The notes under the pieces were generated by a model that made no database searches, was not told the origin of the DNA, and was given only the letters and a program-made list of their open reading frames with translations. A stretch of DNA of 55,721 nucleotides from Prevotella sp. (lineage in GTDB: Bacteria > Bacteroidota > Bacteroidia > Bacteroidales > Bacteroidaceae): the NCBI GenBank assembly GCA_017960525.1, contig JAGCZA010000110.1, positions 1 to 55,721 on the forward strand, read 5' to 3'. The position numbers were made by a program, and so were the translations under genes. This document shows positions 3,297 through 51,709 of this stretch, in pieces; within the stretch, counting starts at the first letter, position 1; every line of letters starts with the position of its first letter.

Positions 3297-3364
3297 AAAG
3301 TTTGGTTCGTCCAAACTACCAGTTTGCTCCGTTCAAACTATGACTTTGGTTCGTCCAAACTTTT
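3297..3364. repeat. Dispersed GTTTGGTTCGTCC repeat, copy 1
   Basis: Three imperfect units (TTTGGTTCGTCCAAACT, then TTTGCTCCGTTCAAACT, then TTTGGTTCGTCCAAACT), separated by ACCAG and ATGAC. It lies between the divergent CotH and ATPase genes. The same motif recurs at 27707-27764 and 51530-51595, with a weak copy near 38393-38407, each time in a divergent promoter region. Confidence 0.7.
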
Positions 3365-8345: not shown

Positions 8346-8362
8346 CAATGAGAACTTGATAT

Positions 8363-10767: not shown

Positions 10768-10789
10768 CCCTGGACGAGGGGGCTGTGCC

Positions 10790-10948
10790 TTACTCCTCGT
10801 CGTCGAAGTCGTTGGTTCTGCGGGAACCGCCCTCGCCGTCCCACCAGGGGACATTCCTTTTGGGGTCTTCGCTATCAGACAGTATCTGGCACTTGTGTTG
10901 CAGTTCCACTACTCTGAACGATGGCTTTTCGTATGCTTTCTTTTTCAT
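10790..10948 (-). CDS. Small acidic-tailed protein, MKKKAYEKP type
   Basis: A 52-aa ORF starting MKKKAYEKPSFRVVELQ and ending in the acidic NDFDDEE. The start is placed at ATG 10948 because GGAGG lies 6 bp upstream; an in-frame ATG at 10963 would add five residues. Short proteins with a basic start, a KP...VVEL motif and a QIL-type segment are common in Bacteroidales next to exported proteins; I know of no function. It lies 18 bp after the stop of the large secreted protein, so they probably share a transcript, and it converges on the cyclotransferase gene with 22 bp between. No signal peptide or membrane segment. Confidence 0.6.
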   Translation of the reverse strand: MKKKAYEKPSFRVVELQHKCQILSDSEDPKRNVPWWDGEGGSRRTNDFDDEE

Positions 10949-10966
10949 TGCTGTGTCCTCCATTCG

Positions 10967-13879
10967 TTATTTGATTACTATCTTTTTTCCATTGTTAATA
11001 TAGATACCCTTCGTGCTGGGCTTGCCGTCGAGGCGGACGCCATCCAGCGTGTACCAACCCTCAAACGACATTTCGCCCGTCTCCATGTTGAGCGTGCCGA
11101 TTGCCTCCACGTCGCCATTGCGGCTCACGAGGCGCACGGTGATGCTCTGGGGCAGGTCATCGGTGGCGGCTCCGCGCGTCAGGCCGCGTGCCGGAGCTGG
11201 TTCTGACGTGCCGACATACGACAGATAGCAGCGCATGGGCTTGATGAATGCGCCAGGGGCAAAGCGGACAAACTGCCCGGCATCCACTGCCTGACCGTCA
11301 ACAGCGGTGCCGCTGGTGGCTGCAAAGCCGTAGTCCTTATCAGAATCGCTTGATGTCCACGTCTTCCCTTTGTACGAGCCGTGGAAATTCCATTCGTCAT
11401 CCGACGTGCCACCGCCATAGACGCCGTCGTTAGCCGTCGTGGGCTGCAGCGTCACAACTCCGCCCGTCATGTGCTCGATGTTCGGGAACGCCATCGTCGC
11501 GTCGCTCGGCATGAACAGATACGGCGTGTTGGCCGTCAGCGATGTCACAGCCGTATTGCCTGGCTCTACCATCGTGCAGACCCATTGGTGCAAGTCTTCG
11601 TTGTACACCACTTCCTTAAAGCCGAAGAACTTGCCGCCCTCGTTGCCGTCGCAGATATAGCTGAACGGCAGTATCACCGTCGCGGCCTGTGCTGTGTTGA
11701 ACGGGCGGTTGTAGGTCACGCTCTTGATATTGCCTACCTCCTCCGTGATGTTCACGCCCACGAGGTTGTTGCCCGTGCCGTTGATGGTCACGTCGGCCCT
11801 CTCATTCCAGTCATCGAAGCGGTATTCCACCACTGCGTCACCGTACTTCGGCGTGTAGTAGTTGCCGTTGTAGAGGAAGCCGTTCTCGTAGCCATCCACC
11901 ATTCCGTAGTCGGTGGTCGCATTGCCGAGGTTGGCGGGCGCGACGGTCGCCGTGGCTGCAGGGCGTCCCTGCTTGTTGCCGAGGGTGCTGGTATAGTAGC
12001 AGTTCGTCATGTTGTAGGTCAGGGTCGGCTCACTGTTTGGATAGACGAACGTGAAGCAGTTGTCGCCCAGTGCGTATTTGCCCGTGCCGTATGCGGCGGG
12101 AGCGGATAGGCAGTCGGTGAACGTGATGGTCCCGTTATTTCCATAGTCCCATCCTATGAATCCGCGGCAGGAGGTGGTCACGCCAGTCTGGTCCGAGTTG
12201 TAAATCAGACCGTCATACACGCAGCCCGTGACGGTGCAGGCGGCATTAGTGCCATTCCACTGGGCAATGACACCGCCGTGAAGGGCACCGCCGCTGACTG
12301 TAGTGCTGATTTCGGTACTCACGCGGCAGTTCTCGATGGTGATATTGCCCTCGGCACGGCCCACCAGACCGCCCAAACTCTCGTATGTGCCGCCCGTGAT
12401 GGTGCCCTCTACGTGGAGGTTGCTGATGGTGGCACCATTGATGTAGTGGAACGGGGCGCAGAAGTCCTCGGCGGCAATGCGGTTAAAGGTCAGCGTATTG
12501 CCCTGTCCGTCAAACGTACCCTTGAACGGGTGACCGCTCGTGCCTGCCATCTCCGACGATTCGATGCTTGTGCCGAGTTTCACGGTTTTGCCGCTGAAGC
12601 CGTCTGGAACCAAGTCGTAGTTTGTGACAAAGCAGAACCAGCCCCAGCCGTTGGCGGTCTTGATAGTGTACTCGTTGATGCCAGTTTCTGCGAAGTCGTC
12701 CTCGCTGATAGAGAACGTAGCGCCGATGGTGACATCCTCTCCGGGCATGGTGAACGTGTAGGTGTTGGCACCCACCGCAGTCAACGTGATGTTACTTCCA
12801 GAGGTTGAGCCCGTCACGGTCAGCCCTGTCAGCGTCTCGCCGAACTTCGGCGTGAAGGTGATGGTGACAGTCTGGCCATTGCCGGCATAATTCCCGGACT
12901 TGTCAGTGGTGAACTGCGGATAGTTGTTATAGACGAAATGATAGTCCGTCACGCGGTAACTCGTCGTCAGCGTGTAGCCCGTGCCTCCGACGTTGATGGT
13001 GACGCTGGCGGTGTATGTTCCCGTGGCGTCAGGTTCGGAGGTGCCATAGTCCTCGTTGGTGTCGGTTTTTATGTAGGTGATAGAGCCGATTGTGGCTTTC
13101 GTTTCCGATTTAAAGTTTTCAAATCCCGACATGCTTGCAGGATAATTCCAGCCATCATGGTATATGAGATTTTGCGGTGGTATCAGCGACGTGGATATCT
13201 GATAACTGGAACTTGCAAGATCACACTCCTTGCCGTCGTCGTGGGCACAGGTGGCGGTCAGCGTATTGCCCACGGCGTTGTACGAGAAGTTGTGGGTGTG
13301 CGTCAGTGTCGATGCCGTAGGCTCGTAGGTGATGGTGAGCGTACCACTTATCTGTAAAGATGCATTTCTGGAGGGTTCGGAGTTCCTCATCTTGATTTCA
13401 AGATACTCATTCTCGTTTGCAAGTTGCAATCCGTCATCGTTCGTGAAGGTGAAGGTCAACGTAGTTGCTGAGCTTATGTCCTCTGTATAAGAGTTCGTCC
13501 AGATATCGCCCTTTCCGATTTTAACGTAATGCTCCGTACCGACAACATTACTATTAACGAAAACACTGGCACTACTGAACGTCAGACTCTTCACCTTGCC
13601 GCTTATGCGAGGATAGAGTTTGACCGTGCCTTCATTGCCGGAATTATACATTTTAGTTCTCATGGTGATTCTGTTCTCATAACGCTGGTTCTGCATTATG
13701 TTCGCGTCGGGAATGAGAAAGTCGTAGCCATCGTATGTGATGGTGCCGCAATAGTCATTGTTCGGGTCACCCACCGCATGGGAAATGGTAAACACCTTTG
13801 TTTCGTCTGTCGCCCACGCCGTCTGCGCCATCGTGAGCATCGCAGCGAGGGTGAGGATGAGATTAAATGTTCGTTTCAT
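10967..13879 (-). CDS. Large secreted protein with GLUG-like repeats and sorting tail
   Basis: Exported protein of about 970 aa. Signal peptide MKRTFNLILTLAAMLTMAQTAWA with cleavage after AWA; start taken at ATG 13879, though ATG 13888 is in frame. An N-terminal beta-rich part is followed by an InlB/Listeria-Bacteroides-like repeat (FTPKFGETLTGLTVTGSTSG), then GLUG-like repeats (FDGQGNTLTFNRIA, ISNLHVEGTITGG, LGGLVGRAEGN), then a C-terminal module ending GWYTLDGVRLDGKPSTKGIY plus INNGKKIVIK, a frequent Bacteroidales C-terminal sorting-like tail. Such proteins are usually surface adhesins or of unknown role. Its transcript has an unusually long, structured leader (see 13982-14121). Confidence 0.85.
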   Translation of the reverse strand: MKRTFNLILTLAAMLTMAQTAWATDETKVFTISHAVGDPNNDYCGTITYDGYDFLIPDANIMQNQRYENRITMRTKMYNSGNEGTVKLYPRISGKVKSLTFSSASVFVNSNVVGTEHYVKIGKGDIWTNSYTEDISSATTLTFTFTNDDGLQLANENEYLEIKMRNSEPSRNASLQISGTLTITYEPTASTLTHTHNFSYNAVGNTLTATCAHDDGKECDLASSSYQISTSLIPPQNLIYHDGWNYPASMSGFENFKSETKATIGSITYIKTDTNEDYGTSEPDATGTYTASVTINVGGTGYTLTTSYRVTDYHFVYNNYPQFTTDKSGNYAGNGQTVTITFTPKFGETLTGLTVTGSTSGSNITLTAVGANTYTFTMPGEDVTIGATFSISEDDFAETGINEYTIKTANGWGWFCFVTNYDLVPDGFSGKTVKLGTSIESSEMAGTSGHPFKGTFDGQGNTLTFNRIAAEDFCAPFHYINGATISNLHVEGTITGGTYESLGGLVGRAEGNITIENCRVSTEISTTVSGGALHGGVIAQWNGTNAACTVTGCVYDGLIYNSDQTGVTTSCRGFIGWDYGNNGTITFTDCLSAPAAYGTGKYALGDNCFTFVYPNSEPTLTYNMTNCYYTSTLGNKQGRPAATATVAPANLGNATTDYGMVDGYENGFLYNGNYYTPKYGDAVVEYRFDDWNERADVTINGTGNNLVGVNITEEVGNIKSVTYNRPFNTAQAATVILPFSYICDGNEGGKFFGFKEVVYNEDLHQWVCTMVEPGNTAVTSLTANTPYLFMPSDATMAFPNIEHMTGGVVTLQPTTANDGVYGGGTSDDEWNFHGSYKGKTWTSSDSDKDYGFAATSGTAVDGQAVDAGQFVRFAPGAFIKPMRCYLSYVGTSEPAPARGLTRGAATDDLPQSITVRLVSRNGDVEAIGTLNMETGEMSFEGWYTLDGVRLDGKPSTKGIYINNGKKIVIK

Positions 13880-15864: not shown

Positions 15865-16998
15865 TTATTGTTTGAATTTGTTAATCAGATTGGAAACAGT
15901 CTCCACCTCGGCATCAGTCATAGCCTGATGGCAGGGCAGACTGAGTTCCTGAGCGTGTATCCGCTCAGTGACAGGCAGGCAAAGATTGTGCCACTCTTTG
16001 TAGCACTGCTGCTTGTGGGGTGGAATGGGATAGTGTATGATGGTCTGGACGCCTTCTTCTGCCAAAAAGGCTTGCAGATGGTCGCGCTGTTGGCAGAGAA
16101 TGGGGAAAATGTGGAAGACATTGTCCGTTGACCATTGACCATTAACCATAATGGCGGGGTTCTTGATATTGTCGGCGTAATAGGCGGCAATTTCGCGGCG
16201 ACGAGCGTTGTCCTGGTCGAGATATTTCAGTTTGACGGATAGGACGGCGGCCTGGAGTTCGTCGAGGCGGGAATTGCGTCCAATGTAGTCGAAGACGTAC
16301 TTGCGGGAGGAGCCGTAGTTGGCAATGGCGCGGACGGTCTCTGCAAGGCGGTCGTCATTGGTGGTCACAGCACCTGCATCACCTAGAGCGCCGAGGTTCT
16401 TACCCGGATAGAAACTGTGAGCGGCGGCGTGGCCGAGGGAGCCAGTCTTCTGGAAGGGCTGCTCATATTGCGCAGCATACAGAACAGAAGGAGAGAGACA
16501 ACCGTGGGCCTGGGCGTTGTCTTCAAGAAGAAGGAGGTTGTGACGGCGGCAGATGTCAGCAATGCTAGGAGTAAAGGCGCAGCGGCCATAAAGGTGGACA
16601 ATCATAACAGCACGCGTGCGCGGCGTGATGGCCTGCTCAATGAGTGTGTCGTCAATCTGGAGGGTGTCAATGCTCGGCTCGACGAGGACGGGGCGCAGGC
16701 GATTCTCGGTGATGGAAAGGATGGTGGCGATGTAAGTGTTGGCAGGCACGATGACCTCGTCGCCCTCGTTCAGGATGCCCATCTCCTTGTAGGCACGAAG
16801 AATGATGGTAAGGGCATCGAGACCGTTGGCCACGCCGATGCAGTGCTTGGTGCCAATGTAGAGGGCATACTCCTGCTCGAAACGTGCCGCAGCCTCCCCA
16901 CGCAGATACCAGCCGGAATCAACAACGCCGGCAACGGCTTCGTGAATTTCGTCGGCGTGCATCGCCGTGATGCATTTCAAGGGCAAATACTCAATCAT
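15865..16998 (-). CDS. DegT/DnrJ/EryC1 sugar aminotransferase (FdtB/QdtB-like)
   Basis: PLP-dependent aminotransferase acting on a dTDP-3-keto-6-deoxyhexose. Motifs: ANGLDALTIILRAY, GDEVIVPANTYIATILSI, ENAQAHGCLS (cofactor-binding Asp at DN), and HSFYPGKNLGALGDAGA with the Schiff-base Lys. The neighbours, a 3,4-ketoisomerase and RmlB, point to a dTDP-3-amino-3,6-dideoxyhexose such as Fuc3N or Qui3N. Start at ATG 16998 overlaps the acyltransferase stop as ATGA; ATG 17007 is also in frame. An in-frame insert encoded by 16121-16148 (MVNGQWSTDN) consists of four 7-bp TTGACCA-type repeats. Confidence 0.88.
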   Translation of the reverse strand: MIEYLPLKCITAMHADEIHEAVAGVVDSGWYLRGEAAARFEQEYALYIGTKHCIGVANGLDALTIILRAYKEMGILNEGDEVIVPANTYIATILSITENRLRPVLVEPSIDTLQIDDTLIEQAITPRTRAVMIVHLYGRCAFTPSIADICRRHNLLLLEDNAQAHGCLSPSVLYAAQYEQPFQKTGSLGHAAAHSFYPGKNLGALGDAGAVTTNDDRLAETVRAIANYGSSRKYVFDYIGRNSRLDELQAAVLSVKLKYLDQDNARRREIAAYYADNIKNPAIMVNGQWSTDNVFHIFPILCQQRDHLQAFLAEEGVQTIIHYPIPPHKQQCYKEWHNLCLPVTERIHAQELSLPCHQAMTDAEVETVSNLINKFKQ

Positions 16999-24614: not shown

Positions 24615-24649
24615 TTCACTTTTCACTATTATCTATTCACTATTCACTA
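24615..24649. repeat. Heptamer array TTCACTA x5
   Basis: Five consecutive 7-bp units TTCACTT, TTCACTA, TTATCTA, TTCACTA, TTCACTA between rprY and the DUF4301 gene. One of many degenerate 7-bp arrays in the window. Confidence 0.7.
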
Positions 24650-24665: not shown

Positions 24666-25364
24666 TCAATCCTCCTCCGGCGTGATGAGTTTATAGCCCT
24701 TGCCGTGGATATTGATGATTTCAATCTGCGGGTCTTCCTTCAGGTGCTTGCGCAACTTGGTGATATATACATCCATCGAGCGGGCGTTGAAGTAGTTGTC
24801 GTCAATCCAGATGGTCTTCAGGGCGAAGTCGCGCTGGAGAATCTCGTTGGCGTGGCTGCAAAGCAGAGCCAGCAACTCGTTCTCCTTCGTGGTCAGTTTG
24901 GTCTGCTGGTCGCCGATAGAGAGCAACTGCTTCTGGGTGTCGAAGGTGAACTGGCCGATGTGGTAGAGCGTAGACTCCTTGTTCTTCTTGCCACGCACGC
25001 GGCGCAGGATGGCCTCAATACGGAACACGAGTTCCTCCATAGAGAAGGGCTTGGTGATGTAGTCGTCGGCACCAAGTTTGAAGCCCTCCAGGATATCGTC
25101 CTTCAGCGTCTTGGCTGTCAGGAAGATGATGGGGATTTCAGGGTTGGAACTTCTGATTTCCTGGGCCAGCGTGAAGCCGTCCTTCTTGGGCATCATCACG
25201 TCAAGTACGCAAATGTCGAACTTGGTCTTCAGGAAAGCCTTGAAGCCAGCCTCGCCATCGGGGCAAAGTTCAGCCTCATAGCCCTTGGCGGCCAGATACT
25301 CACGCAGCAACATTCCGAGGTTCTCATCGTCCTCGCAAAGCAAAATTTTCAGTTTCTCTTCCAT
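24666..25364 (-). CDS. rprY: RprY response regulator
   Basis: OmpR-type response regulator, 232 aa. Receiver domain with the acidic pair LCEDDEN, phospho-acceptor Asp in CVLDVMMPKKDGF, and LTAKTLKDDILEGFKLGADD followed by YITKPFS; C-terminal winged helix with KLTTKENELLALLCSHANEI and YITKLRKHLKED. Partner of the RprX kinase encoded just upstream. ATG 25364 starts the family N-terminus; the in-frame extension to 25469 runs through repeat DNA. In most relatives rprX and rprY are adjacent; here a four-helix-bundle gene and its inverted repeats lie between, the repeat ending 16 bp before this start. Confidence 0.93.
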   Translation of the reverse strand: MEEKLKILLCEDDENLGMLLREYLAAKGYEAELCPDGEAGFKAFLKTKFDICVLDVMMPKKDGFTLAQEIRSSNPEIPIIFLTAKTLKDDILEGFKLGADDYITKPFSMEELVFRIEAILRRVRGKKNKESTLYHIGQFTFDTQKQLLSIGDQQTKLTTKENELLALLCSHANEILQRDFALKTIWIDDNYFNARSMDVYITKLRKHLKEDPQIEIINIHGKGYKLITPEED

Positions 25365-25380: not shown

Positions 25381-25417
25381 AGAGGTGAGAGGTAAGAGGT
25401 GAGAGGTGAGAGAATAG
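25381..25417. repeat. Inverted repeat, rprY side of the four-helix-bundle insert
   Basis: Five 7-bp units (AGAGGTG, AGAGGTA, AGAGGTG, AGAGGTG, AGAGAAT) then AG. Bases 25388-25417 are complementary to 25853-25882 at 29 of 30 positions. In the rprX-rprY transcript the two arms would form a long stem with the small gene in its loop. Confidence 0.85.
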
Positions 25418-25458
25418 TTCTGCCACTTCCCTGCTCTGTCGTCTTCACCAGGTTTATA

Positions 25459-25833
25459 CTATAATTCAAAATGTTTTCTAAGTCCTACAAGCATTTTAGC
25501 TGTCTCATTGATGAACGCCTCCTGTTCGCCAAACTGTAGTCTATCAATATATTCCAACATCTGGGCCACCTCCAACTGGCACATCACTTCCATCAAAGAA
25601 CCGTTGGCGATTTCCAGAAAGCGGACGCGCTCTTTATTTGAGAATCGGCCCATCCCTTCTGCAATGTTTGAAGGCACCGACACAACCGCCCGCCGAATCT
25701 GGTTGGTGAGTCCGAGTCGCTCATCTGGCGGAAACAGCTTTGACAGCCGATATACATTGGCCACCAGCTGCATTGCCCTATGATATACGCTCAGTTTCCT
25801 ATAATAAAAGTCGTTGTTATTCATATCCTTCAA
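25459..25833 (-). CDS. Four-helix-bundle protein (23S rRNA IVP family)
   Basis: 124-aa protein of the TIGR02436/S23 family, first known from intervening sequences inside 23S rRNA genes. Family markers: YRKLSVYHRAMQLVANVYRL, LTNQIRRAVVSVPSNIAEGM, RFSNKERVRFLEIANGSLME. The fold is a four-helix bundle with a basic patch that could bind nucleic acid; function unproven. Start ATG 25833 or 25824. It sits between rprX and rprY and is enclosed by a 30-bp inverted repeat (25388-25417 and 25853-25882), with 41 bp and 19 bp between the arms and the ORF ends. This looks like an inserted single-gene unit rather than part of the two-component system. Confidence 0.9.
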   Translation of the reverse strand: MKDMNNNDFYYRKLSVYHRAMQLVANVYRLSKLFPPDERLGLTNQIRRAVVSVPSNIAEGMGRFSNKERVRFLEIANGSLMEVMCQLEVAQMLEYIDRLQFGEQEAFINETAKMLVGLRKHFEL

Positions 25834-25852
25834 TTAGTCCTATCTGCTTAAA

Positions 25853-25882
25853 CTATTCTCTCACCTCTCACCTCTCACCTCT
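25853..25882. repeat. Inverted repeat, rprX side of the four-helix-bundle insert
   Basis: Complement of the rprY-side arm: CTATTCTC followed by TCACCTC units. The arm overlaps the 3' end of rprX, supplying its last codons (VRGER) and its stop at 25861-25863. Confidence 0.85.
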
Positions 25883-27426
25883 AGCACAGGTATTGTCACG
25901 GTGAACTTCGTGCCCTTGCCCAGTTCACTCTCGCAACGGATGTCGCCGTCGTGCAGATTGATGATTTTCTTCACGTAGGCCAAGCCCAGGCCGAAGCCCT
26001 TCACGTCGTGGACATTGCCGGTATGCACGCGATAGAACTTGTCGAAGATTTTCTTCACGTTCTCACGCTTGATGCCCAGACCGTTGTCCTGGATTGAGAA
26101 GCAGAGGTTGTCGCCCTCGTTCCAGGTATGGATATGGATGTTCACAGGCTCGTCCGGCTTGCGATACTTCACGGCATTGTCCATCAGGTTGGTGATGGCA
26201 TTCTGGAAGTGCACCTCATCCACGAAAATCGTCGAATCGACCGCCTCAATCTCAGTCGTAATCTTGCCACCCGTATGCTCCACGCGCAACGAGAAGGTGG
26301 AAGCCGTCTGCTCCAGCAGCTCGTTCAGGTCCAGCTCCTTCTTCTTGAACGAAGCCGTCTTGTTGTCAAACATCGACATCTGCAGCACTTTCTCCACCAG
26401 GAAGCGCAGCCGACGGCTCTCGTCGCCAATGACACCTCCCAGGTGCTTCATCATCATCGGACTCTTGCCCACACTCTCGTCGTTGAGCATCTGGGCCGCC
26501 AGCGAAATGCTGCTGATAGGCGTCTTCAGTTCGTGCGTCATATTGTTGATGAAGTCGTTCTTAATCTCCGTATAACGTTTCTGCCTGAAGATAATAACAA
26601 TGGTGAAGACAAACGTGATGAGCAGCACAAGAGTGAATATGACAGCGGGAATCATAAACCGCACACTCGAGAAAATATAACTGCTCATCTCAGGGAAATG
26701 AATCTTCAACACACCCTTCTTCGACGACGGGTCGTTCTGGAACAGCACGTGCGTGTAACTCCACTCCTCGCCGTCAGTCGAATAGTCAGGACAGCGGTAC
26801 ACCTCCCGCCCGTCGGCAGTAGAGACCGTGAAGTGATAGGGGATGTTGATGCCGTTGTTCAGCAACTCCTGATGGATGTCGCGGTCCAGCAACTTGAAGT
26901 TCACACGCTCGTTCAACGGCTTCTCGCTCGCCGTGTACAAAATCCTGTAAACCACCTCGTCCAACAACGCCTTCTGATAGATATAGCGCGTGCGCACCAC
27001 CTCCTGCAACGACTTGGCCGCCTCCGACATCTGGTCCTTGTCACTACGCATAATCATAGCCTTCGGCACAGAAGCAGGCTTCGTCTGGAAAGTCTTCAGT
27101 TCAAAGGCCGAATAGACAGTACCGTCGTCAGACGACACAGAGAACTGGTGGCTGTGCTGGATGCTCCCGTCAAGGCTGTTCACCACGACAGAGTCCTGAG
27201 AGTAAGCCTTGCGCTCCACCTCGCTCACATCCTTCTCCAGATAGCGCTGAGTCTCGTTCACCTCCAGATTACGCGAAGCCTGGTCCAGACTGCGGTTCAC
27301 GCTCTCCTCAAACTGCTCCTTCTTCATCTTCGCCATCTCCTCGATGTACGAAATCTGAAGATAGAGCAACCCAAGAAATGAGAAACCCATCACTACCGCT
27401 ATAATCCATATCGTCGATTTCTTCAT
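25861..27426 (-). CDS. rprX: RprX sensor histidine kinase
   Basis: Membrane histidine kinase, about 521 aa. First membrane segment WIIAVVMGFSFLGLLYLQI (about 5-23), a periplasmic sensor of about 220 residues, second segment MIPAVIFTLVLLITFVFTIV, then HisKA with MTHELKTPISSISLAAQML and an ATPase domain with NAITNLMDNAVKY, IQDNGLGIKRE and GFGLGLAYVKKI. ATG 27426 fits the family start; the in-frame extension to 27510 translates a GC-rich repeat. The last residues EVRGER and the stop codon are encoded by the inverted repeat of the downstream insert, so the native C-terminus was probably replaced. Confidence 0.93.
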   Translation of the reverse strand: MKKSTIWIIAVVMGFSFLGLLYLQISYIEEMAKMKKEQFEESVNRSLDQASRNLEVNETQRYLEKDVSEVERKAYSQDSVVVNSLDGSIQHSHQFSVSSDDGTVYSAFELKTFQTKPASVPKAMIMRSDKDQMSEAAKSLQEVVRTRYIYQKALLDEVVYRILYTASEKPLNERVNFKLLDRDIHQELLNNGINIPYHFTVSTADGREVYRCPDYSTDGEEWSYTHVLFQNDPSSKKGVLKIHFPEMSSYIFSSVRFMIPAVIFTLVLLITFVFTIVIIFRQKRYTEIKNDFINNMTHELKTPISSISLAAQMLNDESVGKSPMMMKHLGGVIGDESRRLRFLVEKVLQMSMFDNKTASFKKKELDLNELLEQTASTFSLRVEHTGGKITTEIEAVDSTIFVDEVHFQNAITNLMDNAVKYRKPDEPVNIHIHTWNEGDNLCFSIQDNGLGIKRENVKKIFDKFYRVHTGNVHDVKGFGLGLAYVKKIINLHDGDIRCESELGKGTKFTVTIPVLEVRGER

Positions 27427-27458
27427 TTTCAATCTTTCAATTTCAATCTTCACGCTCT

Positions 27459-27480
27459 CCCCTCCCATCAAGGGGAGGGG
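27459..27480. repeat. GC-rich hairpin repeat in the rprX leader
   Basis: Perfect 8-bp stem CCCCTCCC/GGGAGGGG around a 6-nt loop, followed by a GGGGTGGGGTCACCCC stretch, in the untranslated leader of rprX 33 bp upstream of its ATG. It could affect translation, or be a remnant of a dispersed repeat. Confidence 0.55.
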
Positions 27481-27529
27481 CAGGGGTGGGGTCACCCCAT
27501 TCAAGGTCAATCTTTCTCGATTGCAGCCA

Positions 27530-27706: not shown

Positions 27707-27764
27707 AGTTTGGTTCGTCCAAACTACCAGTTTGCTCCGTCCAAACTACCAGTTTGGTTCGTCC
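27707..27764. repeat. Dispersed GTTTGGTTCGTCC repeat, copy 2
   Basis: Three units, AGTTTGGTTCGTCCAAACT, then CAGTTTGCTCCGTCCAAACT, then CAGTTTGGTTCGTCC, nearly identical in order and spacing to copy 1 at 3297-3364. Located between divergent rprX and ybeY. Confidence 0.75.
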
Positions 27765-30332: not shown

Positions 30333-30404
30333 AACAAAACAACGGATTAAACGGATTAAACGGATTAAACGGATATAAACAAAACAACAGATTGAACGGA
30401 TTTA
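30333..30404. repeat. Inverted repeat, korA side of the GxxExxY insert
   Basis: Begins 2 bp after the korA stop. AAAACAACGGATTAAACGG continued in 9-bp ACGGATTAA units up to 30374; a second, shorter copy (AAAACAACAGATTGAACGG) follows at 30379-30397. The first copy is complementary to the korB-side arm except mainly for A/T changes at unit boundaries. Confidence 0.85.
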
Positions 30405-30426: not shown

Positions 30427-30798
30427 ATGCTAAGATACGAACAGGAAACTTACCAAATCATTGGTGCTGCTATGAAAGTTCATAGTATTCTTGGCCCTGG
30501 ATTTACCGAGAAGGTTTTTCAAGAAGCCCTCGCTATCGAGTTTGCCGAACGCAGTATACCATTTGAACGTGAGAAAGAAATTCATGCAGTTTATAAAGGA
30601 ACCGTGCTAAAAGGAACATTCATTCCTGACTTTATCTGCTATGATAAGATTATTGTTGAAATAAAGGCTGTAAAAGAGTTAGACGATATACATCGCTCAC
30701 AAGCCATCAATTACGCAAAAATTGCTGGTTATAGCCTCTCACTTCTTCTTAATTTTGGTAAGGAATCGCTTGTAAAAGAGCGTTTTCCCATCAAATAA
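30427..30798 (+). CDS. GxxExxY family protein, PD-(D/E)XK-like
   Basis: 123-aa protein of the GxxExxY family (PF13366). GAAMKVHSILGPGFTEKVFQ holds the namesake motif, with Phe in place of the final Tyr. A nuclease-like core follows: GTFIPDFICYDKIIVEIKAV (PD...ExK) and HRSQAINYAKIAGYSLSLLL. Catalysis has not been shown for this family to my knowledge. It lies between korA and korB and is enclosed by inverted repeats of 9-bp units (30336-30367 and 30799-30830). Its AT content is visibly higher than that of the flanking kor genes, a sign of separate origin. Confidence 0.9.
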   Translation: MLRYEQETYQIIGAAMKVHSILGPGFTEKVFQEALAIEFAERSIPFEREKEIHAVYKGTVLKGTFIPDFICYDKIIVEIKAVKELDDIHRSQAINYAKIAGYSLSLLLNFGKESLVKERFPIK

Positions 30799-30833
30799 AA
30801 ATCCGTTAAATCCGTTAAATCCGTTGTTTTAAA
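30798..30833. repeat. Inverted repeat, korB side of the GxxExxY insert
   Basis: Three ATCCGTTAA-type 9-bp units, then TTGTTTTAAA; the reverse complement reads AAAACAACGGATTTAACGG, matching the korA-side arm. It ends 12 bp before the korB ATG and begins inside the stop codon of the GxxExxY gene. Confidence 0.85.
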
Positions 30834-31857: not shown

Positions 31858-32469
31858 TCAGATTTGTCCCGACTCAACCATAAGGACTACGCGCTCCGTC
31901 AGGCGGTCAACGCCATCGGGGTCGTAGCCCTTTTTCAATGACGCGCCAAACATCCACGCAAAGGCCTGCCACATGCCGGAACGGACTGGCCCGATAAACG
32001 CCTGCATAGCCTCGTAGGCCGTGCTGTTACATTCGCGGTCCACCAGTTTAATCAGCAGTTTGCCCTGCGAGAACGTGAGTTTCTTCATCTGCGGCTTGTA
32101 TTCCTTGACGATGGCTTCCTCGACGCGCCGCAGATGTGCCTTGCGCTCGTTTTCAGGAAGCGTTTCCGTAAATTCTGCCGTCTCAATGATAATCTGGCGC
32201 ACTTGCTTGGCAATGGGCAACACCTTCTTCACGTTGCGCACCAAACGGTTGTAAGCCTGCTGCTGCCGTTTGTTCTTGAAGGTCGGCTCAGGATAGACAA
32301 ACACTTGCGACAGTTCCATATACTGAATGGAATCGCCATCGACCAGTGTCTTGCCCACCTTCACCGTGGGCACAAAGACGGGGTCGTCGGTCTGCGCCTG
32401 GGCCGAAATGGGAAATGAGAAATGGGAAATGAGAAATATGATTACTGCTTTCGGCAGTAAGAGCGTCAT
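31858..32469 (-). CDS. DUF4294 family secreted protein
   Basis: 203-aa exported protein of a Bacteroidetes family of unknown function; family features include DSIQYMELSQVFVYPEPTFK, RLVRNVKKVLPIAKQVR and KLTFSQGKLLIKLVDRE. The signal peptide, MTLLLPKAVIIFLISHFSFP then ISAQAQ with likely cleavage before Gln, is unusual: its hydrophobic core is encoded by five 7-bp repeats (32405-32439). ATG 32469 is the start giving a proper signal peptide. Confidence 0.8.
   Translation of the reverse strand: MTLLLPKAVIIFLISHFSFPISAQAQTDDPVFVPTVKVGKTLVDGDSIQYMELSQVFVYPEPTFKNKRQQQAYNRLVRNVKKVLPIAKQVRQIIIETAEFTETLPENERKAHLRRVEEAIVKEYKPQMKKLTFSQGKLLIKLVDRECNSTAYEAMQAFIGPVRSGMWQAFAWMFGASLKKGYDPDGVDRLTERVVLMVESGQI
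32405..32439. repeat. Heptamer array GAAATGG/GAAATGA x5 inside a signal-peptide sequence
   Basis: Units GAAATGG, GAAATGA, GAAATGG, GAAATGA, GAAATAT. On the coding (minus) strand they encode the IFLISHFSFPIS core of the DUF4294 signal peptide. Confidence 0.8.
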
Positions 32470-32534: not shown

Positions 32535-33881
32535 TCAATGGCACAACCGGCAGCCCTCGCATTTGTTCAGTTCGCCACGGAAACGTTTCTCCACCAGATA
32601 GTGCAAACGGTCGCGCAAGGGTTCCAACTGCATCTTGTCGATAACTTCGTTGATGAAGGCGTTCTGTAGCAACAGCCGCGCCTCGTTGAGCGAGATGCCG
32701 CGCTGCTGCATGTAGAAAAGAGCCTGGTCGTTGAGTTGGCCGACGGTGGAACCGTGGGCGCACTTCACGTCGTCGGCATAAATCTCCAGCATAGGCTGCG
32801 TGTACATACGGGCTTCGCGACTGGCCGTCAAGTTCTGGTTGGTCATCTGCGAAGCCGTCTTCTGTGCGCCGTGCTCCACCAGCACACGCCCCGCGAAGGC
32901 TCCTGTGGCCTTACCGTCGAGCACATACTTGTAGAGTTCGTTGCTGGTGCAGTGAGGGGCGTGGTGGGTGATAAGCGTATTGTTGTCCACATGCTGCTGT
33001 TTGTCGGCAATCACACAACCATAGCATGTGCACTCGGCCCCCTCGCCAGAGAGCGTGAGGTCGAGTTTATTGCGCGTCGTGCCGTTGTGCAGGGTGATGA
33101 CGTTGTGGCAGACGCGGCTGTCGCGCTGCTGGTCGATATAGACATTGCTCACGCGCACATTCCGCTGGTGGGTCTCTTCCATACAATAGAGGTCGAGCGA
33201 AGCATTGGCACCCACGCAGGCCTCGATGACCTGGGTGGCCAGAAAATTGCGGTCGTCAGCGGCGTGGTCGCAGAAGAGCAACTTGATTTCCGCCCCCTCT
33301 TCCACCACGATGAGCACGCGGCGGTTCACCATAAGCGAGCGGTCGTTGTCGGCAAACGGGCTTTTCAGGATATTGATGACCTGAACGGCCTTGTCGACCT
33401 TCACGCCACGAGGAACATAGACGAGCAGCCCGTCCTGGGCAAGCATCGTGTTGAGGGCCGTGATGCTGTCGCCGGCCGTATCGGCCAGTTTGGCGTAGTG
33501 CCGCGCCACGAAGTCGGGATGATTACACAGCGAATCGACAACGACCCCGTCGGGCAGATGCCCTTTTGACTGGGCTTGCCCGTAAAACGCATCGTTGACC
33601 ACAAAGAAAAGTTGCGTGGAAAGGTTGGGCACGTCGCAGCGGAACGCCTGGTAAGGGTCCACGGGAATGTCTAACCGCCCCAGGTTCACGCCGTAGTCAG
33701 GCGCAAAGAGTTGCTGTATGTCGGTGTACTTGTAGCGCTCCACCTTCTTCGACGGGAAGCCCAGCCGGCAGAAATCGTCAAACGCCTTGTCGCGCACGGC
33801 GTTCATCGTCTCCACCGAATGGCCGAAAATTGTTTTCCGCGCCTCCGTGTACAGGTCAATATATTGCTGTTCGCTATTCAC
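32535..33881 (-). CDS. sufD: SufD, Fe-S cluster assembly scaffold subunit
   Basis: 448-aa SufB/SufD-family protein of the SUF iron-sulfur assembly complex. Markers: SKKVERYKYTDIQQLFAPDY near the start, a long beta-helix region, ALLVEHGAQKT-like VLVEHGAQKTASQMTNQNL, and the C-terminal CAHGSTVGQLNDQALFYMQQ followed by RGIS, shared with all SufB/D proteins. Start codon is GTG 33881, lying inside a 7-bp repeat array (33877-33918). It follows sufC after 41 bp. SufB, usually in the same operon, is not in the window. Confidence 0.93.
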   Translation of the reverse strand: MNSEQQYIDLYTEARKTIFGHSVETMNAVRDKAFDDFCRLGFPSKKVERYKYTDIQQLFAPDYGVNLGRLDIPVDPYQAFRCDVPNLSTQLFFVVNDAFYGQAQSKGHLPDGVVVDSLCNHPDFVARHYAKLADTAGDSITALNTMLAQDGLLVYVPRGVKVDKAVQVINILKSPFADNDRSLMVNRRVLIVVEEGAEIKLLFCDHAADDRNFLATQVIEACVGANASLDLYCMEETHQRNVRVSNVYIDQQRDSRVCHNVITLHNGTTRNKLDLTLSGEGAECTCYGCVIADKQQHVDNNTLITHHAPHCTSNELYKYVLDGKATGAFAGRVLVEHGAQKTASQMTNQNLTASREARMYTQPMLEIYADDVKCAHGSTVGQLNDQALFYMQQRGISLNEARLLLQNAFINEVIDKMQLEPLRDRLHYLVEKRFRGELNKCEGCRLCH

Positions 33882-33918
33882 TTTTCACTTATCACTTTTC
33901 ACTTATTACTTTTCACTT
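33877..33918. repeat. Heptamer array TTCACTT x6 between sufC and sufD
   Basis: Six units: TTCACTT, TTCACTT, ATCACTT, TTCACTT, ATTACTT, TTCACTT. It fills the sufC-sufD gap and contains the sufD GTG start codon. Confidence 0.8.
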
Positions 33919-33922
33919 ATTC

Positions 33923-46567: not shown

Positions 46568-48139
46568 TTACTTCAGCCTGAAAGTGATAGGGAGCGTGTA
46601 CCTTACGCGCACGAGCTTGCCATTCTGCATGCCAGGCTTCCACTTCGGCATGGAGCCGACGACGCGAATGGCCTCAGCATCCAGGTCATCGTTTACCTTC
46701 TTGACGACCTTGGCATTATTGACACGGCCTTCGGTATCGACAACAAACTGCACGAGAACACGGCCCTGTGCACCGGCCTTAAAGGCTGCCTCAGGATAGC
46801 AAACATTCTCGGCCAGGAACATCATCAGGGATTCCATACCACCGGGGAACTCAGGCATCTGCTCCACCACGTCGAACACATCATCAAAGTCGGTGTCGAC
46901 GACCTTTGCGTCCTTGAAGTCGATGCCGGAAGTGTGAACCCTTGCTCCGTTCAATTCCGGCACGGGCACCGTCTTGGTCGTGATGATGACCACGCCGTTC
47001 TTGCCTTCCTCACCATACTGAGCGGTGGAAGCCTCGCTTTTCAACACATCGATGTGGTCGATGTCATCAGAGTTCAGCATCTCTACCTGCTGAAAGTCCA
47101 CGCGCTCGCCATTGAGGATGAAAAGCGGTTTGTCCAGATGGTCTTTCTTCTCCATCTCAACCTTGACGGTGGCCGTATCGGTCTTCAACACAATGGTTTG
47201 TCCATTGAGTTTTATTTCTCCGTCCTTGCGTCCTTTCTTCACCACTTTCTTCTGTGGCTGCTGATAAACGTAGTCATTGACGGTCTCGGCGTTCATTGCC
47301 AGGGCAACGCCCACGATGGGCAGCAGGGCAAGCAGTTTGAGCATGCTCTTGCGGGTTGATTTCTTATTGTTAAGCATCATAGTTATGCGGTTTTTGAGGG
47401 TACTGTGACTAATGCCGTTGGCTACTGAGTACCCGCAGCGGCTGACGGCTTTTTGGATAAGGAGATACTGATACTGACGCATATTGATGCCTTGAGAGAG
47501 AACCGCCGCATCGGCCTCGTACTCGTGGATAGTGCGCAAATCCTGGCGCAGCATCCACATAGCAGGGTTGAACCATTGCAGGGCGGTGAGCGTATCAACG
47601 AGGAGCAAATCCAGCGAGTGCCGCTGACAGATGTGTCCCCGTTCATGGGCGAGTATCGAGGCATTGCCGGCCTCGTAGTCGCTGTGTGAAAGTACAATGA
47701 AGCGCATCCAACTGAAAGGCGAGATGTCGCGATGCGTGACGCAAAGGACGATGCCGTCGGGCTGCGGATGACGCTCGCTGTTGCGAATGAGCAACCACAC
47801 GCGCAGCACGCTCATCAGCGTATAGCCCAGCGTGACAGCCATTCCCGCGAAGAACACGACAACGACCATCGTATGCCAGAAAGGCACCTGCGTTTCCTCG
47901 ATCATCGCGGCCAGACCGTCAAGTCCAATAGTTCCTATACCCCTGTCCACTATCACTGTCTTGTGAAAAGTGATGACGCACAGCGGCAGCACAAACGAGG
48001 CGACAGCCGTAGTGAGCAGCACCACGCGGTTGATGCGATGGAACGTCTCACGGCTCAACAGCAGTCGGTAGAACATATAGAACACCGCCACCAATACTGC
48101 CACTTTCAGGTCGTAGGTCAGGAAAGAAACCATAGTCAT
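46568..48139 (-). CDS. M56/BlaR1-like peptidase with TonB C-terminal domain
   Basis: Inner-membrane sensor peptidase, 523 aa. Several N-terminal membrane segments, then the M56 zinc motif LAHERGHICQRHSLD with further ligand in IHEYEADAAVL. After a fourth membrane segment (LLALLPIVGVALAMN) comes a plug-like segment (VEMLNSDDIDHIDVLKSEAS, GKNGVVIITTK) and a TonB C-terminal domain (FPGGMESLMMFLAENVCYPE, RVLVQFVVDTEGRVNNAKVV). BlaR1-type proteins cleave the paired BlaI repressor; the two genes are adjacent here. The TonB fusion is common in Bacteroidetes. Start ATG 48139 or 48133. Confidence 0.9.
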   Translation of the reverse strand: MTMVSFLTYDLKVAVLVAVFYMFYRLLLSRETFHRINRVVLLTTAVASFVLPLCVITFHKTVIVDRGIGTIGLDGLAAMIEETQVPFWHTMVVVVFFAGMAVTLGYTLMSVLRVWLLIRNSERHPQPDGIVLCVTHRDISPFSWMRFIVLSHSDYEAGNASILAHERGHICQRHSLDLLLVDTLTALQWFNPAMWMLRQDLRTIHEYEADAAVLSQGINMRQYQYLLIQKAVSRCGYSVANGISHSTLKNRITMMLNNKKSTRKSMLKLLALLPIVGVALAMNAETVNDYVYQQPQKKVVKKGRKDGEIKLNGQTIVLKTDTATVKVEMEKKDHLDKPLFILNGERVDFQQVEMLNSDDIDHIDVLKSEASTAQYGEEGKNGVVIITTKTVPVPELNGARVHTSGIDFKDAKVVDTDFDDVFDVVEQMPEFPGGMESLMMFLAENVCYPEAAFKAGAQGRVLVQFVVDTEGRVNNAKVVKKVNDDLDAEAIRVVGSMPKWKPGMQNGKLVRVRYTLPITFRLK

Positions 48140-48174
48140 TTACGATTTACGCATTTTCGATTTACGATTTGCGT
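48138..48174. repeat. Dispersed AAATCGT heptamer element, copy B
   Basis: Units ATTTACG, ATTTACG, CATTTTCG, ATTTACG, ATTTGCG between the blaI-like and blaR1-like genes; near-identical in reverse complement to 42312-42346. Confidence 0.7.
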
Positions 48175-48176
48175 TT

Positions 48177-48545
48177 TTAGGATTTAACAGGATGTGATTC
48201 AATAGTCTCTATTAGTTCTTTCAGTTCGTCCACGGAAATTTTCTCTTCCTTCACGAAGGCGGAGACGGCACTCAGATAGGAGTCGTTGAAATAGTCGCGG
48301 ATGATGCCCGTGAGGCTTGAACGCCCGTACTCCTTCTCAGTGACAAGGGGAAAATACTGGTACGACGTGCCGTACTGCTTATGGTCCAGGAAGCCTTTCT
48401 TCTCGAGGATTCGCACCGTTGTCGACAGCGTATTGAAGTGGGGCCGAGGCTCGTCGTAATACTCCAGGAGTTCCTTCACGAACATTGCCCCGTGCTGCCA
48501 GTACAACTCCATGATTTCCCGTTCTTTCGTGGTCAGTCTTTTCAT
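48177..48545 (-). CDS. BlaI/MecI-family repressor
   Basis: 122-aa winged-helix repressor, partner of the M56 peptidase downstream. MKRLTTKEREIMELYWQHGA opens the DNA-binding domain; FNTLSTTVRILEKKGFLDHK is the recognition helix and wing, ahead of the dimerisation helices. ATG 48545 matches the family start. Two perfect AACTAAA-N3-TTTAGTT palindromes lie 71-112 bp upstream, so autoregulation is likely. The real inducer is unknown; in Bacteroidetes such pairs are not limited to beta-lactamase control. Confidence 0.9.
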   Translation of the reverse strand: MKRLTTKEREIMELYWQHGAMFVKELLEYYDEPRPHFNTLSTTVRILEKKGFLDHKQYGTSYQYFPLVTEKEYGRSSLTGIIRDYFNDSYLSAVSAFVKEEKISVDELKELIETIESHPVKS

Positions 48546-48725: not shown

Positions 48726-51119
48726 TTATTTCTTGATAAGCCGGACGCCGTAGATTTCGCCGACCTGCTTGCCGGGCTTGGCTACGAACTTGACGCGCAC
48801 TTGCGACTTGCCCTGAAGCATTTGGGCTGGGATGTCGAATGTCTCGTACTTGAACTCAGAGATGCGGTATTTGCCGGTGTTGTTGACGCTGGTGAGGAGT
48901 TGGTCGTCGATGAAGATGTCGAACTCGTGTGTTTTCCACTCGCCGACACCCCAGAACTTGAGTCGGAGAGAGAGGTCGGTGTGTCCGGCTGTCTGCATAA
49001 GGTAACTGAAATAGTGGCCGTTGCGGGCGTCGCGCCAGAACACATCATTGGTGTTGCCCGTGTTGGAGCGGTCGGTCTCCATCTTGTGGTCGGTTTCGGG
49101 CTGTTGTTCGCCGGGTTGCACTTTGTCGATGGTACGGGCCTCCAGTTCCTGTCGTTCCTGCTCCTGCTTGGCCAGATTGTCGAGATAGCCCTTGTAGTTC
49201 TGCTCGGAAAGGGCGAGCCAGTACATCATATAGCGAGAATCGTGGACTTCAAAGAAAGGCAGGAGTTCATTGACCATTGACGATTGGCCATTGACCATTT
49301 TGGTTTCGAGTTTGAAATGGAGCGGCTGGCCTGCGATGGGTGTCAGTTGGTTGGCAATGTCTTCGATGTTGTCATTGATGAGGATAGGTGCTTCATTGAT
49401 GGGCAGTTTCTTGCCGCTGGCGTACTGTCCGAAGCGGCTGTCGTCAGCGATAATGTGGGCGAGGTCTTCGTTACCCGTTTTCGCTGCGAGGAGAATGGGA
49501 CCGTGCATCAGTGCGATATACTGCGGCACGTTAGGCAGATACTTGATGCTATTGTGCATAGGGAACGACAATTCCACGACATCGCCTTTTTTCCATTTGC
49601 GGTCGATGGTGATATAGGACGAGGGGCCGGTAATGATGCCGACAGGCTGGCCATTGACCTTGACACTAAAGGCATCTGGACTAACCCATCCAGGATAGCG
49701 AACAAGCAGGGGGAACTGCCCCTTTCCACTGGTAATTGTAATCTTGCTCGTTTCACCATAGGGGAAGTTGGTTTCCTGTCGAAGGGTAAGCCCTTTCTCG
49801 CGCCAGTTCAGTTCGGACGACACGAAGAGGTTGACGTAAATGGCATCGCCCACGTGGGTATAGATGAACTGGCCGTACTTGCCGTGGTTCTCCATACCTG
49901 TGCCCACGCAGCACCACATAGCCTCGTTGGGAGCCGAATAGTTGCGGTAGTGGCGCGGACGGGCGGGTGTGAAGTAGACGTAGCCGCCGTGATCAGGGTG
50001 CTGACTGGAGAGGATGTGGTTGAAGGTGGCCAGTTCGTAGTAGTCGGCATAGCGTGCCTCTGGGTTGCGTCGGTGCATATCCTCGGTCAGTTTCAGCATA
50101 TTGTTGGTGTTGCAGGTCTCAGGGCCGTCAATGTCGTTGATGAAATCCATACAGGCCTCTTTGCTGGGGAAGTGCTCGCGGCGGCTGTTGCCACCGAAAG
50201 CGAGTGAACGCTGACCAGTCACGATGTCCCAGAAGAAGTCAGCAGCGTGGTGATAACTCTCGTCGCCACTCAGTTCCGAGATGCGCTCGAAGCCTACCAC
50301 CTTCGGTACCTGTGTGTTGGCGTGCATATTGTCGAGATTGTCCACACGCTGTGACATCGGAGTGAGCAGACGGCGGTGTGAGAACCGTTTGGCCACATCG
50401 AGGTATTTTTGGTCCTTCGTGATGGCGTAGGCATCGGCCAGCACCTCGTTCATGCCGCCGTGCTCGTTGCCCAGCATCTGCTCCATCTGCTCGCCGCTGA
50501 GGCCAGCCGTCAGGTCGATAGCCCAGTCGCAGAAGCCCAGGAAAAGATGTTTGGCCTGCTCATTGCCGCAATAGAGCCAGGCGTCGCGCAGGCCGGCATA
50601 CATCTTGTGGAGGTTATAGAAGGGTGCCCACGAGCCGAAGTACACGCCAAAGTCACCGCGCTTGAAGTTGCTCCAGATGCGCTCGCTGTTCGGCATTCCG
50701 CCCGCATAGCCCTTGCCCCAGTCGGGATGGTTTTTCGCATTGGCATCGGCACAGAGTTGCAACTCTCCAATCATATACTCCATACGCTTGCGACACTCCT
50801 CGTTGCCCGTGGCGGCATTGATGGCCATCGCCGTCAGATAATGGCCGCCCACATGTCCGTCAAGCCCGTCCCAGTTGGGATAGGTCTTCGCCCTTGGCTC
50901 AAGACCTGACTCTTTGCGATAAGGGGCCAGCAGGCGGTCGCAGTCGTATTTCAACAGAGTTTGGATGTTCAGGTCACGGGCTTTCTTCAGCGGCCCGTCC
51001 AATAGTGTCACGTCACCAAGCGGAAATTCGTCGCTGTAGAGTTTGTCTTGTGCACCAGCCATTGTGCTGACGGCCAGAAGTGCCGATAGCATCAGGTGTT
51101 TCATCGTCGTTTTCATCAT
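48726..51119 (-). CDS. GH127-family glycoside hydrolase (beta-L-arabinofuranosidase type)
   Basis: Exported enzyme, 797 aa, signal peptide ending STMAGAQ. An alpha/alpha-barrel with GLDGHVGGHYLTAMAINAAT, LGNEHGGMNEVLADAYAITK and NTQVPKVVGFERISELSGDE, and the GH127 zinc-cysteine centre: GPETCNTNNMLKLTEDM (Glu and Cys) and MWCCVGTGMENHGKYGQFIY (Cys-Cys, one being the nucleophile in HypBA1). C-terminal beta domains follow, including a DUF4986-like part. The likely substrate is arabinofuranoside of plant glycans. An in-frame insert MVNGQSSMVN near residue 610 is encoded by four 7-bp repeats (49270-49297). No susCD pair is nearby. Confidence 0.9.
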   Translation of the reverse strand: MMKTTMKHLMLSALLAVSTMAGAQDKLYSDEFPLGDVTLLDGPLKKARDLNIQTLLKYDCDRLLAPYRKESGLEPRAKTYPNWDGLDGHVGGHYLTAMAINAATGNEECRKRMEYMIGELQLCADANAKNHPDWGKGYAGGMPNSERIWSNFKRGDFGVYFGSWAPFYNLHKMYAGLRDAWLYCGNEQAKHLFLGFCDWAIDLTAGLSGEQMEQMLGNEHGGMNEVLADAYAITKDQKYLDVAKRFSHRRLLTPMSQRVDNLDNMHANTQVPKVVGFERISELSGDESYHHAADFFWDIVTGQRSLAFGGNSRREHFPSKEACMDFINDIDGPETCNTNNMLKLTEDMHRRNPEARYADYYELATFNHILSSQHPDHGGYVYFTPARPRHYRNYSAPNEAMWCCVGTGMENHGKYGQFIYTHVGDAIYVNLFVSSELNWREKGLTLRQETNFPYGETSKITITSGKGQFPLLVRYPGWVSPDAFSVKVNGQPVGIITGPSSYITIDRKWKKGDVVELSFPMHNSIKYLPNVPQYIALMHGPILLAAKTGNEDLAHIIADDSRFGQYASGKKLPINEAPILINDNIEDIANQLTPIAGQPLHFKLETKMVNGQSSMVNELLPFFEVHDSRYMMYWLALSEQNYKGYLDNLAKQEQERQELEARTIDKVQPGEQQPETDHKMETDRSNTGNTNDVFWRDARNGHYFSYLMQTAGHTDLSLRLKFWGVGEWKTHEFDIFIDDQLLTSVNNTGKYRISEFKYETFDIPAQMLQGKSQVRVKFVAKPGKQVGEIYGVRLIKK

Positions 51120-51474: not shown

Positions 51475-51529
51475 CAACTTTTTCCTGACATATCCACCAT
51501 TCCTTTGCGTTTTTTATTTTGGTGCCATC

Positions 51530-51595
51530 TTTCTCCCAGTTTGGTTCGTCCTTTCTCCCAGTTTGGTTCGTCCTTTCTCCCAGTTTGGTTCGTCC
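51530..51595. repeat. GTTTGGTTCGTCC repeat, copy 3: three perfect 22-bp units
   Basis: Three identical, back-to-back 22-bp units, each TTTCTCC plus CAGTTTGGTTCGTCC, at 51530, 51552 and 51574. The 15-bp core is the one repeated at 3297-3364 and 27707-27764. Confidence 0.85.
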
Positions 51596-51709
51596 TTTTT
51601 TCAGATGCAAAATTGGCTTAGTTTTTATGGAAACAAAAAATTTCACCAAGCTGCAACTTTTGGGTAACTAAATACGTCTAACAGATAGAAACTTTTAAAG
51701 AATACCATT

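Follow-up and report, generated by a model that had tools for sequence, protein, structure and literature searches.

In a 55,721-nt stretch of Prevotella sp. DNA (GenBank assembly GCA_017960525.1, contig JAGCZA010000110.1; the window in what follows), a gene of the 23S rRNA IVP family, whose products are four-helix bundles, is located between a sensor kinase gene and a response regulator gene and is enclosed by inverted tandem repeats. This locus raises the question of what such a gene does between two protein genes, and whether the repeats belong to the gene or to the place in which it is found.

The first-pass annotation had placed an IVP-family gene between the kinase and the regulator, and profile searches confirmed this arrangement, the order on the minus strand being rprX, IVP, RprY. 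The downstream gene, rprY (24666..25364, minus strand), matches the NCBIfam model RprY NF051850 with an E value of 2.6e-134. For the upstream histidine kinase gene (25861..27510, minus strand, with a TTG start as listed), none of the best 25 NCBIfam matches listed passed its cut-off; we call it rprX because of its position and following the earlier annotation. The IVP ORF (25459..25824, minus strand) encodes 121 amino acids from the ATG at 25824, or 124 amino acids if a possible TTG start at 25833 is used. It matches PF05635 (E 1.5e-35, 122.1 bits, curated cut-off 33.8) and TIGR02436 (E 1.7e-33, 115.1 bits, curated cut-off 24), and among solved structures it matches 2gsc (E 6e-29).

The inverted repeat around this gene is real, although its extent had to be corrected from 29 complementary positions of 30 to arms of 32 nt each (25388-25419 and 25851-25882) that are 97% complementary and spaced by 431 nt. 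Tandem Repeats Finder reports AGAGGTG in 4.6 copies at 25381-25412 and CTCTCAC in 3.6 copies at 25858-25882. The 3' arm of the unit (25381..25419, minus strand) consists of the AGAGGTG array and an inner end, AGAATAGTT, and its paired part is 25388-25419. The 5' arm (25851..25882, minus strand) is the CTCTCAC (AGAGGTG) array. As had been annotated, the array on the rprX side encodes the C-terminal residues of rprX (...VLEVRGER*) and its stop codon. The other array stops 16 bp short of the rprY ATG at 25364. The proposal that the arms form a long stem with the ORF in its loop agrees with the predicted RNA fold of the unit, which has an energy of -176.4 kcal/mol; 100 shuffles average -145.9 kcal/mol (sd 6.75), which gives a z of -4.5.

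The window holds a second unit that is absent from the first-pass annotation. Here a GxxExxY gene is flanked by a pair of 2-oxoacid:ferredoxin oxidoreductase genes (with matches to Pfam POR and TPP_enzyme_C), which we take to be korA and korB. Its 5' arm (30336..30366, plus strand) is a 9-mer array, AACGGATTA, with the array at 30341-30380, and its 3' arm (30800..30830, plus strand) is a 9-mer array, AAATCCGTT, with the array at 30799-30825. The loop is occupied by an ORF of 123 amino acids of the GxxExxY type of PD-(D/E)XK proteins (30427..30798, plus strand; PF13366, E 2.9e-37). In a search against solved structures, its top match was T7 endonuclease I with a non-significant E value of 0.17. 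GxxExxY units with their 9-mer arms may represent a parallel family with a like life style.

To score inverted arms, we took the highest-scoring gap-free inverted match between the 300 bp on either side of a gene (match +1, mismatch -2); a score of 14 or more was counted as positive, and flanks swapped between sites served as control. The genome from which the window comes has 11 PF05635 matches at 10 sites, two of the matches being pieces of one broken gene. Nine of these sites scored at least 14 and one scored 13, and each has its own repeat unit (AGAGGTG, GAGAGTT, CATTGAC, AAATGAG, GGAGTTC, ATTTACG, and others). A search of 60 genomes of the same genus provided 99 IVP sites, which stand for 211 matches and are mostly the better-scoring ones. 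Inverted arms were found at 87 of the 99 sites, compared with 10 of 396 swapped pairs, and scores of at least 20 at 63 of the 99, compared with 3 of 396; the other 12 sites remained under the threshold of 14. Lower-scoring IVP matches gave a similar picture (18/20 versus 21/380 swapped), and GxxExxY loci were positive in 22 of 32 cases (1/240 swapped), a weak match within a 524-codon open frame (L015) having been left out. A phylum-wide sample of IVP loci gave a weaker result than the genus, 11/30 versus 1/210 swapped; by eye, repeat copies in this sample are shuffled or gapped, and such copies are missed by an ungapped score. In a scan of named genomes, from which 4 of 80 loci were dropped because matches were cut or flanks short, 28 of 42 Bacteroidota loci (6/247 swapped) and 26 of 34 loci outside the Bacteroidota (3/201 swapped) had inverted arms. 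According to the record titles, the latter 26 belong to Verrucomicrobia, Acidobacteria, Firmicutes, Proteobacteria, Omnitrophota, Chloroflexi, Planctomycetes, Kiritimatiellaeota, and Ignavibacteriae, while single loci of Nitrospirota, SAR324, and KSB1 scored below 14. The excess of flanking inverted repeats at other members of the family, for which the first-pass annotation had suggested a search and whose absence it had named as refuting, was thus found within the genus, outside the phylum, and among lower-scoring matches.

The repeat units vary from site to site, while both arms of a site match each other. The best period of IVP arms in the genus was 7 in 74 of 174 arms and 8 in 53 of 174, and outside the Bacteroidota it was 7 in 37 of 52. 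GxxExxY arms favour a period of 9, which is nonetheless seen in just 11 of 44, and 30 of 44 have no clear period. Four loci from other phyla (L360, L362, L367, and L368) carry near-perfect 7-mer arrays of up to >150 nt on either side of the IVP gene.

Arrays might simply be common in gaps between genes, with IVP genes falling between two of them by chance, and array-rich, AT-rich gaps do yield some matches, as in the 21 of 380 swapped pairs. The swapped controls contradict a chance pairing of arrays in all five locus sets (genus, phylum, GxxExxY, named genomes, and lower-scoring matches) and rule it out. Inverted pairs also exceed direct ones: a scan of 1.22 Mb from two genomes, unguided by genes and excluding array pairs that touch stretches of N, yielded 36 inverted pairs of arrays sharing a period within 800 bp, compared with 15 direct pairs. 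We therefore assign chance a negligible probability.

Whether the arms go with the gene was examined in sets of loci that take in shared sites with unrelated IVP copies; this holds for the correlation as well as for the comparisons within shared sites. Across 3564 pairs of units at different sites, arm similarity correlated with IVP identity (r 0.41, reached by 0 of 2000 permutations), climbing from 0.18 at an IVP identity below 20% to 0.64 above 70% (10 pairs), and same-site pairs trended alike. The arms thus belong with the gene and not with the place, and arms and ORF form one element. Within shared sites, own arms scored 19.5 and crossed arms 11.3, with own arms ahead in 138 of 152 pairs. 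At an IVP identity of 0.65-0.75 these values were 23.6 and 13.1 (own higher in 18 of 19 pairs), and at 0.75 or above they were equal, 20.7 and 20.9; own arms beat crossed arms at 15 of the 16 shared sites. Both arms of an element change in concert. The IVP gene is under purifying selection, with a median dN/dS of 0.06 over the 11 usable of 37 pairs, the other 26 being saturated in dS and several of the 11 near saturation. Our results indicate that the IVP units quite probably form a single family of mobile elements.

Arms that change in concert are also expected under a different explanation, in which polymerase slippage makes the heptamer arrays, the IVP gene prefers or survives in array-rich gaps, and quasi-palindrome correction matches the two arms to each other. 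A proposal that slippage favours 7-nt units is reported in the introduction of PMC4679880, a paper accessible to us in part. One solo array (L112) looks as if it had grown from the rprX stop codon, which would suit slippage; it is an individual case that looks derived from the host. An arm type that tracks the gene across sites argues against this explanation, and so does the comparison of ten own-genome sites with their empty orthologs, in which array units matched their own site no better than chance (own 7.1, other 6.7, permutation p 0.12). A copying of the units from the host insertion site is likewise not supported.

Empty rprX-rprY junctions in related genomes, another check proposed in the first-pass annotation, were readily found. 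An rprY match was present in 52 of the 60 genomes, and 30 were read; 28 of the 30 relatives lack the unit and have a junction of 5-112 bp, and among the genomes read the unit is confined to the own genome and G059. For the nine other own-genome sites, 26 orthologous junctions could be located in three close relatives, and every one was empty. Solo arrays of other units are present at several empty junctions, as slippage would allow.

The 99 IVP sites correspond to 51 places, 16 of which are common to 2-13 genomes. Vertical descent is seen at some of the shared places, for example, L005, L073, and L087, where the IVP sequences are 79-88% identical and the unit is unchanged, and at four places one junction has been used repeatedly by unrelated IVP copies that are 22-27% identical. 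No fresh transposition was captured, as even the most similar pairs of IVP units from different sites have a DNA identity of only about 77%. Target-site duplications were looked for at the own-genome sites and at units of the close relatives G028 and G044, and none was readable, the flanks being 77-94% identical and the gaps too diverged. Matches in G044 were found for 21 of 24 G028 units, 19 of them with both flanks aligned. Some units were intact in both genomes, and others were truncated in one; still others were represented by remnants or palindromes, were missing, or were faced at the same junction by a mini (a miniature copy) or hairpin of another family. In one case, a full G028 IVP unit stands opposite a mini-sized remnant in G044, and in another, a truncated G028 unit stands opposite an intact G044 one.

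Some further arrangements were observed in these genomes. At C36:131950 of G028 and its G044 ortholog (L295), a 7-mer mini is opposite a 9-mer CACAGAG hairpin in the arm style of GxxExxY units. On contig C7 of G044, positions 7499-11121, two IVP genes that are related to each other and a GxxExxY gene (L065, L066, and L177) lie within 4 kb in a cluster-like arrangement, to which a neighbouring pair at 12090 and 13946 on contig C19 of the own genome is akin. A 23S rRNA copy of the element, sought for direct comparison by means of five exact 23S motifs, was not present among the loci retrieved.

The loops of the 36 inverted array pairs from the unguided scan were bimodal, 19 of them measuring 26-75 nt and 15 measuring 291-485 nt, with one of 152 nt and one of 113 nt, the last being a second reading of a mini. 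Loops of 26-75 nt are too short for a gene. The 15 large loops, whose number is affected by stretches picked partly for their IVP content, held an IVP gene in 14 cases (one truncated) and a GxxExxY gene in 1, and no further gene type. Several minis, as judged by eye and with no control, carry both differing ends of a full copy in the same genome, such as GTTGAGCGAGATT and GTTGAGCGTAGTT in G028; the own genome offers an example with AGTTCAGAC-ATAG-like ends. Two IVP-free genomes, scanned over about 783 kb with array pairs at stretches of N again left out, had no minis. We slightly favour the reading that the unit between rprX and rprY is a copy of a mobile, intervening-sequence-like hairpin element, made of inverted arrays of about 7 bp with the IVP gene in the loop.

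Full units are mostly oriented like their surroundings. In the genus, the IVP gene is co-directional with both neighbours at 78 of 95 loci and antisense to both at 1 of 95, and co-directional placement was also found for 22 of 27 GxxExxY loci and 25 of 29 IVP loci of the phylum sample; these counts omit loci without clear neighbour ORFs (4 of 99, 5 of 32, and 1 of 30, respectively). A purine bias of the 5' arm (65% versus 36%) was dropped as a sign of an RNA role because the first arm of an inverted repeat reads alike on both strands, and for the same reason an enrichment of stop triplets in the 5' arm (0.106 versus 0.064) is weak.

Such orientation would be expected of an operon-processing device in which RNase III cuts the stem and so sets the ratio of the flanking cistrons, the ORF being a passenger. 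The strong predicted stem and the retention of the unit in several species at the 16 shared sites also point in that direction. What speaks against such a device is that orthologous junctions are mainly empty (28/30 at rprX-rprY and 26/26 for the nine others), that the ORF is under purifying selection, and that minis occupy 8 convergent and 4 divergent gaps beside 8 co-directional ones. This count of 20 minis comprises the 19 from the scan and one at G028 C36 226473, a duplicate reading at G028 C23a 52633 having been dropped. We consider a pure operon device unlikely. The intervening-sequence reading of the first-pass annotation holds, but operon processing alone is insufficient to account for minis in convergent and divergent gaps and for a large, apparently mobile family.

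The load of heptamer repeats bears on slippage once more. Runs of three 7-mers numbered 7 in 833 kb of seven PF05635-free genomes and 166 in 1430 kb of IVP-bearing genomes, with kinship uncorrected, each class dominated by two genomes, and the units themselves counted in the IVP-bearing DNA. Runs of 6-mers were nearly alike in the two classes (95 and 202 in the same stretches). Without the four large samples, 7-mer runs numbered 1 in 50 kb of IVP-free and 19 in 207 kb of IVP-bearing DNA. The class with 4-7 IVP matches had only 2 runs in 41 kb, and the load thus does not rise smoothly with the number of IVP matches. The rarity of 7-mer runs, and not of 6-mer runs, in IVP-free relatives argues against slippage, which we regard as improbable.

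Solo arrays, in turn, resemble the IVP arms of their own genome more often than those of another genome (23/49 versus 0/49 in G000 and 38/104 versus 15/104 in G028). Solo 7-mer arrays of the window, to which no strand is assigned, include two CATTGAC arrays (16119..16149 and 49268..49299) with the unit of the arms of own-genome site L005, an ATTTACG array (48138..48186) with the unit of L010, a TTCACTA array (24615..24649) of the type of L007, a GAAATGA array (32405..32437) of the type of L008, and a TTCACTT array (33877..33920) reported by Tandem Repeats Finder. Related copies of the element may be a source of 7-bp repeats across genomes of the genus, and if so, intergenic heptamer repeats would gain an origin, at least in this genus.

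With terminal inverted repeats, miniature derivatives, and intergenic placement, the units could also be taken for ordinary non-autonomous transposons that carry the IVP as a cargo gene and are moved in trans by a standard transposase acting at their ends. BrickBuilt MITEs of Porphyromonas gingivalis, also a member of the Bacteroidales, offer a precedent, being miniature inverted-repeat elements with an internal minisatellite; they differ in having 23-nt units between fixed terminal repeats that resemble insertion-sequence ends, and the accessible part of their description mentions no IVP gene (PMC4596501). Such transposons would have a fixed transposase site, whereas arm sequence here varies between units of one genome, and full-size loops hold IVP or GxxExxY genes only (15/15). 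We judge a cargo transposon very unlikely. Within the IVP unit, no nuclease, recombinase, or reverse transcriptase was found, which counts against the mobile hairpin element, as do the weaker phylum sample, the sites under the threshold, and the GxxExxY arms that have no clear period.

The mobile hairpin element that we favour has its closest counterpart in the 23S rRNA intervening sequences, whose origin and function are described as still obscure although they have been known for more than 25 years (PMC4990558; this and the other papers cited were accessible to us in part, and our statements refer to those parts). In Coxiella, a 23S intervening sequence with an S23/IVP ORF has a 28-bp terminal stem that is cut by RNase III in vitro, and tandem heptamers are present just 5' of the ORF; Leptospira and others are named as further bearers (PMC4990558). 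ORF-less 23S inserts of 83, 99, and 112 nt have been described (PMC2672173), and rRNA genes of CPR bacteria contain both IVP-bearing and ORF-less insertions (PMC11270868). The elements described here share with them the protein family, an ORF looped out by a stem of terminal inverted repeats, and short forms without ORF, and they may work in a like manner. They differ in that the window unit sits between the protein genes rprX and rprY and not inside an rRNA gene, in that the arms are heptamer arrays of site-specific sequence, in their several to many copies per genome, and in the minis; RNase III cutting is demonstrated for the 23S intervening sequence, whereas the stem here is predicted by folding. 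For the 112-nt Photorhabdus insert, the accessible text reports no copies, homologs, or repeats (PMC2672173), which counts against a mobile-element reading.

REPINs and their RAYT genes are a further counterpart: like the minis, REPINs are short inverted doublets (about 100 bp) that occupy gaps and have a full-length gene as partner in their own genome (PMC3116915). The RAYT product is a tyrosine transposase, whereas the loop gene here encodes an IVP four-helix bundle with no catalytic relative, and the arms, unlike those of REPINs, are tandem arrays that vary between copies. The element thus departs from the rRNA class in one defining trait (place) and from the REPIN/RAYT class in one (transposase), and there is a real chance that it represents a new class of mobile element. 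Intergenic tandem heptamers of the sequence TAACTGA, abundant in Beggiatoaceae, Cyanobacteria, and some Bacteroidetes, differ in being one fixed heptamer that is nearly always direct, and the main text of that paper, as accessible to us, does not contain the words four helix, intervening, or S23 (PMC4679880). In the literature searched, in which most subscription journals were outside reach, we recognised no paper that links non-rRNA PF05635 or GxxExxY genes to inverted heptamer arrays.

On this basis, we infer how the element might work. The IVP gene would be read from the host operon, the arms would form a duplex in the transcript, and the duplex would be removed by RNase III, as happens to the 23S rRNA intervening sequence in vitro; by that analogy, we see the balance as even for an excision of the element from the transcript by this enzyme. 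The stem would free the element RNA and leave the cistrons usable, and insertion between cistrons would then do little harm. One could speculate that the hairpin is bound by the Avd-related IVP protein, which would aid its spread, that of miniature copies included. Avd of diversity-generating retroelements is required for retrohoming, and PF05635 proteins resemble it (PMC10053308); the window IVP scores 29.1 bits against the DivGenRetAVD model, below the NCBIfam cut-off of 80. The IVP/S23 family forms a homopentamer of four-helix bundles (PMC4990558). In Coxiella, S23p is held to be probably not produced and to be less important than its RNA (PMC4990558), which counts against a role of the protein, and we regard IVP as a possible, somewhat doubtful mobility factor.

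A broader proposition, which we offer tentatively, is that IVP and the parallel GxxExxY genes define a class of bacterial mobile elements that lack any known transposase, with a pentameric four-helix bundle as mobility factor acting on heptamer-array hairpins, that the rRNA intervening sequences are a minority of this class, and that minis and decayed copies are a main source of bacterial intergenic heptamer repeats. A mobile element without a known transposase would, if true, be a new mechanism to work out. If rRNA copies are the small visible part of a family that resides between protein genes in a wide range of bacterial groups, the role of the protein becomes testable in the operons of strains in culture. 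It would also explain PF05635 genes inside unrelated operons, such as a cas locus with one between cmr3 and cmr2; 18 IVP genes in cas loci were treated as an associated function in the accessible part of PMC3936711, and the element picture offers another reading of them.

Repeats of other kinds were noted as well. On contig C19 of the own genome (C19:16144-16327), inverted 8-mer arrays (AGCGTCCC) surround 119 nt that contain an AT-rich palindrome and have no IVP or GxxExxY match. In the window, three arrays (3299-3361, 27707-27764, and 51529-51598) are built of one 22-bp unit (AGTTTGGTTCGTCCAAACTACC and a relative) that contains a palindrome and whose core also adjoins an own-genome 9-mer mini at C24:38452.
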